Below, piece after piece: positions 41,801-44,800 of a stretch of DNA of 64,000 nucleotides. The stretch lies in NCBI RefSeq assembly GCF_019059575.1, contig NW_024881692.1, positions 310,001 through 374,000 of the forward strand. Direction: 5' to 3'. The translations under genes were made by a program, and so were the position numbers. The notes under the pieces were generated by a model. The model was given only the letters and a program-made list of their open reading frames with translations, did not search any database and was not told where the DNA came from. Origin of the DNA: Amphibalanus amphitrite (lineage: Eukaryota; Arthropoda; Thecostraca; Balanomorpha; Balanidae). The number at the start of each line of letters is the position of its first letter. The first letter of the stretch is position 1.

Positions 41801-44800
41801 GGAAAGTAGTCATTGCCAAGTGAAGCAAAATGACTGCCCACTATACCAACACAAGCAACTATCATTTATACCAGTGTTAGTAATTAACGCAATACGCATT
41901 CATACTCAAGGTGGGGAAAAGCATGCCTGGTCATGTTCTTGCAAGGTTATTTTTATTGCCGAAACCCTTGGCTCCGTCCGGCTAAGCTAGGCTTGTTGCC
42001 AGACAGAACCTCAGGAAACAGCACGGACTAGAGTATTATAAGAATTAGTACAATAAGTTGTATAGATGTCAATGTAGGTAATGCATGTAACCTACATTCA
42101 ATTTGAATATTTACCATAAGGTAAATATGCAAATTGACTATCGTCTGATTGTTTGACTGTACCGTTTAGGTGTTGTTCCGTCCTGGGACTGTCATTTTTA
42201 CCGTGCCGTACAGGTGTTGTTCTGCCGTCTGACTGACGTTGATTCTGTTCCGCTCAGGTATTGTTTTGTCGTCTGACTATCGTCTTTGCCGTGTCTTACA
42301 GGTGTTGTTCTGCCGTCTGACTGACGTGCAGCGTCAGTTGTACCAGGACTACCTGAACTCGGATGGCCTCAGGAGGATCATGCAGGGCAACATGAAGGTA
42401 AGGAATCATGGACATGCGTTATGAATTTTTTAACGTTAATAAGAGACGGGAACACTGAACAGGTGTCTGCCCAATGTGGTAGCCTAAGGATTAGTCGCCA
42501 GGGCGTTCTATGGTTAATGGTAAAACATTATCCAAAGTAAGCCTTACAAAGTGTGTTATATGCACGATCCGAATGCAGTAGCATATGTGCAACAAATTCA
42601 ATGATGTCTTGACTTCAAATACCCATATGAAAGGCAACACGCCAATAAGAGACGTTCTTTTGGGCCTCACTATCGGTAACTTCTGGTTCCTTGGCACCCT
42701 TCCTTGGCATCCTCCTGACCTGGCCTCACCATCTCAATATAGACCCTATCCCGCGGCTGTCACTATCTCCCAATCAATAACTGTCTCGCCAAGCTGTACC
42801 TACCCTGGGCTTTCTCGCGGCAGTTGGTTTCAGCTGGCCAGGTGTTTATGGCTTGACAGTTCTCATGTGGTATTTGCGTCGTTCTGTCACCGCAACTGGA
42901 CTTGTTGGCTAGGTGTTTACTAGTCTTACGGCGCTCATGAGGCCCCTGCGTCGTTCTCTCACGACACCTATGTGTTGGCCAGGTGTTAATTGGTGTCACG
43001 GTGCTCAAGCGGCACCTGCGTCGTTCTCTGACAGCACACCATGCCCCGCAGGTATTTGTGGGTCTGACGGCACTACGGAAGCTGTGTAACCACCCGGACC
43101 TGCTGACTGGCGGCGGTGAGCGGCCCGGTGAGACGGGTGACGAGCCGGCGCCGTTCGGCCACTGGCGACTGGCCGGTAAAATGGTGGTGCTGTCCACTCT
43201 ACTGGCCATGTGGCGCCGTCAGGAGCACAAGGTGCTGCTGTTCACACAGAGCAGGCAGGTGGGTGACGGTTAGGGAAGAAGGGGGGGGGGGGGTGTGGTT
43301 ATAGGGTGGGTGACACGGGGGTAGTCCCGTCTGTCGTGGGGACTGTGAGCTGCGGACTGCGCTGTTCCGGGTAGTCGGCTTTGTTCCATCTAGTTATACT
43401 TTTATCGTTTTTATTGTATGTACTCTGCTTTATGCATGAGTGTCCAAACAAGTTACTTTCTTTGTAAGCCTTGGTTTGAAGCGATTGGGAACACATTGAT
43501 TGAACGGAATCTGCTGACCTGCTGTGCAGTTTTTTATCGTCCAATTCACTAGCCATCATCATTTATTTTTTGTTAATATGTGTCCCACTGTACATTTATT
43601 ATAGTGCTTTGCTTTGTAGAGCTTACGTATCATAAACCTCAGCTGTCCTGTACAGTGTACAGCTTTAATATACCCTCACTCATTCTTGTACTCTGACCCT
43701 ATTGTCTCTTCTGACAGATGCTGTCGATCGTCGAAGCGTTTGTGGCCGAGCGCGGCTACAGCTACCTGCGGATGGACGGCACGACTTCAGTCGGCTCCAG
43801 ACAGTCGCTGATCGGGCGGTTCAACGCCGAGCCGGACATTTTCTGTTTTCTGCTGACCACGAGAGTCGGAGGACTGGGTGTCAACCTGACTGGTACGGGA
43901 AATGAGGCGGCAGGGTGGCTGGTAAAGAAGAGATTTGATCATTTGAATTGGCCAGTAAAGATAGTTAGGTGATAGTCTGTTACAATAAAAGTGACGGGAT
44001 ATGAGACAGGGACGCCAATCTGGTGCAAGACCCAGGTTTTCAGTTTGGTACGATTTTAGAGAACTGGGTTTTAGTTTGGCTAGAACGTAGGACTGGGTAC
44101 CAATGTGGTTGATGCGGGACATTTGATGCATGTATTCGTCTTATAATTGACGCTTCAGCTAGGAACGCTTGGCCGTCGTTTCCCAAAGAATGCATGTTCG
44201 CTGCTTAGCGAGAAGATGCTTTGTTATTCACATAAACTTTGTTCCCCAGGTGCTAACCGTATCGTCATCTACGACCCGGACTGGAACCCGTCGACTGACC
44301 AGCAGGCCCGAGAGAGGGCCTGGAGGATCGGCCAGGGGCGGCACGTCACCATCTACAGGTCTGAGGCTGGGCCCGGGGCTGTCTGTCTCTAGTCTGTCTC
44401 TAGTCTGTCTGTCTGTATGTCTGTCTCGGTCCCTCTGTGTGTCCTCATATACGAGGATCTGGAATACTGGACTGTGATATGTCAATGTGAAGTCGGTGTG
44501 TTTTGAGTATGTTACGTTTGGGGGTTTTGATGACAGATTCTCGTTGGAGAGGGAATAATTGCGGATGGGTGGGATGGAAAGGTCTTCATCGTGCAGTGGC
44601 GACTGCTCTGTGTATTTTTTTTTTTGTGATCTCAGGTTCGCAATTGTCACCATCGTAGTGGGTCTTTGGCCTTGCAGGGACCATGTCATTACAGTATTAT
44701 GTGTGTGATGTGTAGTTGTACCTACTACTGCCCGGTCCTGACGAGCCACCCTCGCCGCAGACTTCTGACGGCGGGCACCATCGAGGAGAAGATCTACCAC

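Follow-up and report, generated by a model that had tools for sequence, protein, structure and literature searches.

The ERCC6 gene and its surroundings

The window, that is, the whole 64,000-nucleotide stretch of barnacle DNA (Amphibalanus amphitrite) analysed here, carries the ERCC6 (CSB) gene on its plus strand. Between 23142 and 46548 we placed 12 ERCC6 exons and the start of a 13th, all with splice consensus, and the mapped introns, with lengths measured in ERCC6, range from 307 to 10571 nt. The preliminary description of this DNA had already named the gene as ERCC6, and this identity was borne out, since exons e8-e11, which follow the exon e7 considered below, match human ERCC-6 in translation with an E value of 9e-89. 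Exon e7 was assigned to ERCC6 using a human fragment as query. The features of the splice junctions are collected in Table 1, where junction coordinates are the first base after AG and a slash marks the junction.

Several other elements share the window. The 10.6-kb intron e4-e5 holds two long frames on the minus strand (28316-30661 and 31522-33801) with Lig_chan and Lig_chan-Glu_bd domains, ionotropic-receptor-like in kind. Intron e5-e6 contains an inverted pair of a related open frame, 37072-37569 (-) and 37574-38248 (+), which to judge by its motifs is probably the end of a retroelement, and a Pfam search with the plus-strand frame gave no match. A satellite of about 20 bp (GGGGCACCACAGGCCTGCCA) occurs in 33 copies at 3021-3684, and three loci about 3-24 kb upstream of the window (L014, L015 and L016) contain long 84-bp periodic repeats that look zinc-finger-like by eye. 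The Rfam scan of the window at gathering scores found no family.

Table 1. Exons, decoy splice sites and associated repeats of the ERCC6 gene in the window
Feature	Position	Strand	Remarks
GGTCA-rich degenerate repeat from end of e3	25395..25648	+	includes donor ACACGCAG/GTCAGA at 25406/25407
Decayed older third unit of 71-nt array	41130..41189	+	score 21, shuffle maximum 14, p=0.005
Decoy unit, 71 nt, before e6	41191..41261	+	GTCAG/GTGGTGACGGCTTACCGCTGTGCCA
ERCC6 exon e6	41262..41378	+	true acceptor of 71-nt array; GC donor of the e6-e7 intron at 41379, CAG/GCAAGT
Fifth unit, 5' part	41569..41590	+	after TTTAG; CTGTAATTTTGTCGTCTTACTA; cut off by transposon
Transposon copy	41591..42137	+	inserted in array; CTA target duplication at flanks
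Fifth unit, 3' part	42138..42169	+	ends TACCGTTTAG (decoy 1 acceptor)
Decoy acceptor unit 1	42170..42213	+	TTTAG/GTGTTGTTCCG..., 132 nt upstream of true exon start
Decoy acceptor unit 2	42214..42257	+	TACAG/GTGTTGTTCTGCCGTCTGACTGACGT, first 26 nt = true exon start
Decoy acceptor unit 3	42258..42301	+	CTCAG/GTATTGTTTTGTCGTCTGAC; exon-derived CTGAC at -26 of true acceptor
ERCC6 exon e7	42302..42397	+	true acceptor of 44-bp array; donor GTAAGG
Three decoy acceptors, ~70-nt array before e8	42842..43051	+	junctions 42842, 42913, 42983
ERCC6 exon e8	43052..43258	+	true acceptor of 70-nt array

Three decoy acceptors in 44-bp units precede exon e7

Four equally spaced junctions had been claimed before e7, and AG/GTNTTGTT is indeed found at 42170, 42214, 42258 and 42302, with a spacing of exactly 44 bp. 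The words "exact" and "perfect-looking" that had been applied to this array hold only for part of it: the spacing is exact but similarity between the units is about 70% (42168-42327 in Tandem Repeats Finder, with period 44, 3.6 copies, 70% matches and a score of 159), and decoy 2 agrees with the true exon start at 26 of 26 nt whereas decoys 1 and 3 have diverged from it, with 7 and 5 mismatches in 26. Each unit combines, as had been described, the start of the exon with the end of the intron (26 nt and 18 nt, respectively) and contains no AG between the junctions. By inspection, the intron parts of units 1 and 3 resemble each other, as do the exon part of unit 2 and the true exon start; the sequence suggests that the final growth step of the array doubled an 88-bp pair. 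The 13-mer TGTTCTGCCGTCT of the unit recurs at 23688, directly before the acceptor of e2 (23707).

We compared the first 30 nt of e7 with the 255 nt upstream and obtained a score of 26 against a shuffle mean of 7.9 (the lowest p that 300 shuffles allow), which excludes chance. The duplication scores of this array (46 and 50) exceed those of the 70- and 71-nt arrays described below (36 and 32); these two head the list of local duplications in the window, the satellite at 3 kb aside, the 44-nt array having been removed from that list by the complexity filter. In an AG-anchored scan it came out on top, tied with a satellite pair, among the matches listed. A 301-bp genome probe over the array gave, outside ERCC6, a match confined to its first 38 nt, which belong to the transposon palindrome.

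The decoy 132 nt upstream runs into a stop, as had been predicted, and in fact all three decoys give a premature stop. Judging from protein homology, only the last acceptor can yield protein and is presumably the one used, and the view that the spliceosome must discriminate the true acceptor from good-looking copies is supported. As branch-like motifs are no fewer in decoy 1 than at the true site and the decoys are nearly as pyrimidine-rich, splice-site strength alone fails to account for the choice. An RNA structure hiding the decoys was also considered and rejected, since the segment 42090-42310 has an unremarkable fold (z -1.56; 14 of 200 shuffles reached its stability) and its strongest stem is the transposon end.

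The array once reached further upstream. The transposon copy that interrupts it, which we judge to be young, has 98.4-99.5% identity to the seven other copies read; it has an 18-bp stem at its end, and most of those seven share a longer stretch with each other. When the element and one CTA are removed, the flanks form a fifth unit of 51 nt that begins CTGTAATTTTGTCGTCTTACTATCGTC after TTTAG. With one CTA left out, the score of this match was reached by 1 of 2000 shuffles, and retaining both CTA weakens the match (13 of 500 shuffles). As the transposon splits this unit, the e7 array probably predates the young insertion.

Neighbouring ERCC6 junctions also carry arrays

The preliminary description treated the array before e7 as though it were unique, which did not stand: acceptor arrays precede three consecutive ERCC6 exons, e6, e7 and e8 (units of 71, 44 and about 70 bp), and thus 3 of the 13 mapped acceptors, and further arrays lie in several other genes. 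Before e6, the decayed third unit was also seen as a self-match with 75% identity, and a genome probe over the 71-nt unit matched its own locus only. Before e8, the best two of 760 offsets for the exon start coincide with two of the three array registers, the exon-only alignment is weak (p 0.19), and a search for a further unit upstream of this array found none. The last decoy before e8, at 42983, is in frame and open. The remaining 10 of the 13 ERCC6 acceptors gave p values of 0.12 or more, and among the 12 donors none was significant after correction for 12 tests (lowest p 0.013, e9).

The repeat at the end of e3 has 18 GGTCA in 254 nt (0.48 expected) and seven junction copies at 71% or more, its own junction counted, and is probably a donor-side array from its sequence; the alignment test at this donor was not significant (p=0.28). 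Probes over the 44-nt array and the 71-nt unit found no second ERCC6 allele in the assembly.

Arrays at splice junctions of other genes

The assembly searched comprises 807.6 Mb in 2644 contigs. Our scan covered 30 SNF2-family loci and a 100-kb region next to the window, with detailed reading of six loci; L048 was read and set aside. Together with the survey described below, this showed acceptor arrays in two BRM-like genes, in CHD4- and SMARCAD1-like genes and at two further exons of helicases, while donor arrays were seen in ISWI-, DDX6- and DDX18-like genes.

In the BRM-like genes, acceptor arrays reach 12 decoys. The SNF2 exon matches BRG1 at 1.8e-45 and the exon carrying the array, which starts AWLEAHPGWVAAPDEDEE, lies about 1.1 kb upstream; we take it to belong to the same gene from its position and from the human sequence. 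In the first gene, 12 decoys and the true site are found on C18, and 3 pattern-matched decoys and the true site on C209, where one additional unit deviates from the pattern. The second gene, 91% identical to the first over the SNF2 exon, has 3 decoys and the true site on each of C1291 and C704. On these four contigs all 21 pattern-matched decoy units hit a stop, and 14 of the 21 read AWLEAHPGWVAD* or differ from it by one residue.

In the CHD4-like gene (C94) the decoy of the acceptor array reads AGGLVINLATADTVI and then stops. Four NWL-type acceptor units are found on C161, in a gene that we read as SMARCAD1-like from a match to a solved structure; an assignment as CHD1-like was dropped because the same search points to SMARCAD1. 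The helicase exon on C133 has an acceptor decoy that is in frame and open, and the exon part of the acceptor duplication on C1546 amounts to 4 nt only. As for donors, two copies of the exon end and donor follow the exon on C99, the second of them decayed, in a gene that we take to be ISWI-like from a match to a SMARCA chain (5.8e-90). Two more donor arrays are clear by eye: the DDX18-like array on C111 reads FDPPDDPK/GTCAGT followed by more copies of CCCAAG/GTCAGT, and the DDX6-like array of GTCTGCTCCG/GT has 9 copies on C405 and 13 on C205 (one mismatch allowed, true site included), most of them spaced 20-30 nt. A three-unit repeat with 87-92 bp between units and an acceptor-like YAG before a similar frame was seen at 2930-3260 of L010 (C195, about 13 kb past the window end) and resembles an acceptor array; it was not counted as one, as the frame after the repeat has no Pfam match.

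Tandem duplications at exon edges in a survey of 70 exons

We then looked at exons chosen blind to repeats. Seventy were taken from the SNF2, Helicase_C and myosin match lists by size and open frame, most of them with 300-400 nt of flank, and the threshold was a duplication score of 20 or more touching the exon edge. Such a duplication was found at 6 of the 70 exons (5 if the contig pair L077/L078 is counted once), against a mean of 0.0 in 10 rounds in which the flanks were shuffled and the matched core kept; a shuffle variant that leaves in-frame arrays intact gave a constant 1.0 and 1.0. The acceptor cases were L051 (C1546) and L067 (C133), and the donor cases L075 (C111), L077 (C405), L078 (C205) and L086 (C8), the last of which, with a putative exon end, is a probable donor array. 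Considering that L077 and L078 are one exon on two contigs and that there are 15 similar-core pairs, the independent exons are fewer than 70. No junction duplication was seen in the seven myosin exons. Two early candidates, L060 (AT-rich, score 16) and L063 (located inside the coding frame), were judged to be chance.

Seven more duplications lay outside the edge zone, among them one simple repeat, two that are acceptor arrays of the next exon (C94 and C161), and the G-run repeat near an exon end of L101, which had been a candidate of the donor type. The exon-edge zone makes up 15.6% of the non-core sequence and is touched by 6 of the 13 duplications (P 0.009), or by 5 of 12 when L077/L078 are counted once (P 0.028); with C94 and C161 moved in, which is a post hoc step, the figure is 7 of 12 (P 0.0009). 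These data argue that tandem duplications prefer junctions, and part of the preference may be a detection effect, because the conserved exon copy keeps old duplications visible.

Unit differences between paired contigs

The two contigs of the second BRM-like gene differ in their last units. The exon on C704 is opened by the last unit, in which GCGTGGC follows the intron end TGTGTAATTTGCTGCCAG. This stretch, with one T fewer, opens the third of four units on C1291, whose final unit has a different intron part; the unit with GCTGCCAG/GCGTGGC at its end is last on C704 and third on C1291. The first 15 residues of the array exon are the same on both contigs; if the last unit is used on both, the working acceptor has shifted by one unit while these residues remained unchanged. 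C704 and C1291 are 88% alike over 2.7 kb and would be either recent duplicates or alleles in a species of very high diversity. Copy number differs between contigs as well, with 12 matched decoys on C18 versus 3 on C209 and 9 donor copies on C405 versus 13 on C205, and the members of these pairs, too, may be alleles or recent duplicates. High within-individual diversity is reported for another barnacle, Balanus improvisus (PMC8270832). Pairs of contigs with equal scores are frequent in the assembly (for example C167/C1259, C303/C309 and C1036/C2142), and the pairs compared have 88-99.5% identity over their longest match, being uncollapsed haplotypes or recent duplicates.

Discussion

We consider it likely that the arrays arise by recurrent tandem duplication across splice junctions followed by turnover of the units, with decoys that are neutral and tolerated. 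Short head-to-tail duplications would repeatedly strike exon-intron junctions, each taking in the adjoining edges of the exon (from a few nt up to about 50) and of the intron, after which the array would expand, contract and drift like a minisatellite. Protein would be obtainable only from the copy that is contiguous with the remainder of the exon (the last acceptor or the first donor), and the other copies would become intronic decoy sites under neutral evolution. Gain or loss of units next to the exon would shift the working site to another unit with the protein unaltered.

In this mechanism long flanking introns would cause splice sites to be paired across the exon, favouring the exon-proximal site, so that decoy use would be low. 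Exon definition is reported to set in above introns of about 200-250 nt (PMC9225289). As the ERCC6 introns of 307-10571 nt lie above this range, it predicts use of the exon-proximal site. Tolerance of the decoys would follow from the preference for that site and from the early stop to which most decoy use leads; as the decoys at 42983 in ERCC6 and on C133 are in frame and open, not every use would be harmful. The array before e7 may owe its viability to the exon-derived CTGAC, a motif that stems from the exon codons L-T. Of the three acceptors preceded by a unit, two (42258 and the true site) have it at -26, where it would act as their branch point. Since the 44-nt units are free of AG, scanning from a branch point farther up would halt at an earlier AG; the CTGAC at -26 is the branch point expected for the true acceptor.

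Two decoys, 42258 and 41191, differ from their true copies only at third codon positions (over the first 20 and 25 nt), and coding constraint was considered for this reason. For six ERCC6 decoys (an indel excluded 42842) the differences at codon positions 1, 2 and 3 number 11:10:18 (p 0.23 versus even), and the reading was dropped on these counts. The decoys look neutral, and some coding constraint could lie hidden in the 18 changes at third positions.

These counts also bear on the idea that the decoys are regulatory sites, whose use leads to a premature stop and message decay, with array length as a rheostat. In its favour, a stop is reached by 6 of the 7 ERCC6 decoys read (1 before e6, 3 before e7 and 2 of 3 before e8) and in every one of the BRM-like units counted above, decoy acceptors retain YAG and a pyrimidine content near that of true sites, and array length differs strongly between C18 and C209. 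However, unconstrained sequence would mostly give stops too, the codon positions reveal no clear constraint, two decoys (42983 and C133) stay open in frame, and the arrays occur in unrelated genes with unrelated units; we regard this explanation as improbable. The chance that the arrays are remains of intron birth, in which an AGGT-holding exon segment is tandemly duplicated and provides both intron ends, appears slim. The route is documented elsewhere (PMC2891723, PMC3443670), and the three ERCC6 arrays have AG/GT junctions and leave exon-derived sequence inside the intron, but the donor and acceptor contexts before e6, e7 and e8 agree at 13, 9 and 12 of 40 nt, with about 10 expected by chance, and the arrays are confined to one intron end.

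The listed decoys of e6, e7 and e8 read AG/GT, as recursive splicing would require, with a decoy used as acceptor and then as a rebuilt GT donor, stepwise to the true exon. By inspection the rebuilt donors (GTGTTG, GTATTG, GTGTTT, GTGTTA and GTGGTG) match GTRAGT poorly, 44 nt would be a very short intron, and the BRM-, CHD4- and SMARCAD1-like and C133 units, mostly AG/GC, AG/GG, AG/AC and AG/CC, would be unable to splice in this way, which makes the explanation highly improbable. Equally far-fetched is an assembly artefact, in which long-read or scaffolding errors duplicated short stretches and which the preliminary description had proposed as refutation. Many near-identical contig pairs are kept in the assembly, but most units differ among themselves, a transposon copy splits one of them, and arrays of other units are found on many contigs, with those of the BRM-like and DDX6 genes on both members of a pair. 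Spread of the transposon or introner type was looked for with the 44- and 71-nt unit probes, which gave no genome-wide recurrence of the unit. A broader claim, that arrays are widespread across hundreds or thousands of introns, with duplication aimed at exon borders, sites that hop and array length tuning the message, seems to us rather unlikely.

The closest precedent that we found is the VNTR of human ABCA7 intron 18, which starts at the exon 18 donor and varies in copy number, and in which a donor one unit in is sometimes used, with frameshift and stop (PMC5954066). The barnacle arrays likewise abut the exon and their unit contains the splice site, and the 25-bp ABCA7 unit is near the spacing of most DDX6-like donor copies. 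The case described there is a single human locus on the donor side with an array from the intron GT, whereas here several genes and both junction types are involved and the coding sequence in the acceptor arrays amounts to about 50 nt at most. Intron gain by tandem genomic duplication, with which PMC4974935 is also concerned, resembles our case in that a duplication spanning AG/GT leaves exon sequence in an intron (PMC2891723, PMC3443670), and differs in that a new intron with matching ends is formed, while here one end is lengthened and the other is unlike the unit. NAGNAG tandem acceptors also place multiple AG acceptors near each other, but at 3 nt (PMC3250501), against about 44-99 nt here, where the sites come with separate pyrimidine tracts and, in most cases, a copy of the exon. 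No report of similar acceptor arrays, or of such arrays in barnacles, was among the matches listed (the best 20 of up to 2,206, with few subscription journals). The barnacle arrays belong to the ABCA7 kind, extended to acceptors with coding copies and to several genes.

The choice between a true site and its copy has classically been studied with engineered duplications, in which duplicated sites compete in cis (Reed and Maniatis, as cited in PMC9225289) and exon definition predicts that the exon-proximal site prevails (PMC9225289). Unlike those constructs, or pairs of alternative sites, the barnacle genome supplies natural arrays of up to 13 similar sites (as many as 12 of them decoys), at either side of exons and with contig pairs that differ in number, so that counts of decoy junctions in ordinary RNA-seq would directly measure the exon-proximity rule. 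Gene finders may mis-call array exons by one unit. The arrays also show a route by which introns could grow and a splice site could be replaced by its own copy with the protein unaltered, which bears on intron sliding and on the evolution of intron length. If the broader claim were true, splice-site choice in this barnacle would be constantly tested across hundreds or thousands of introns.
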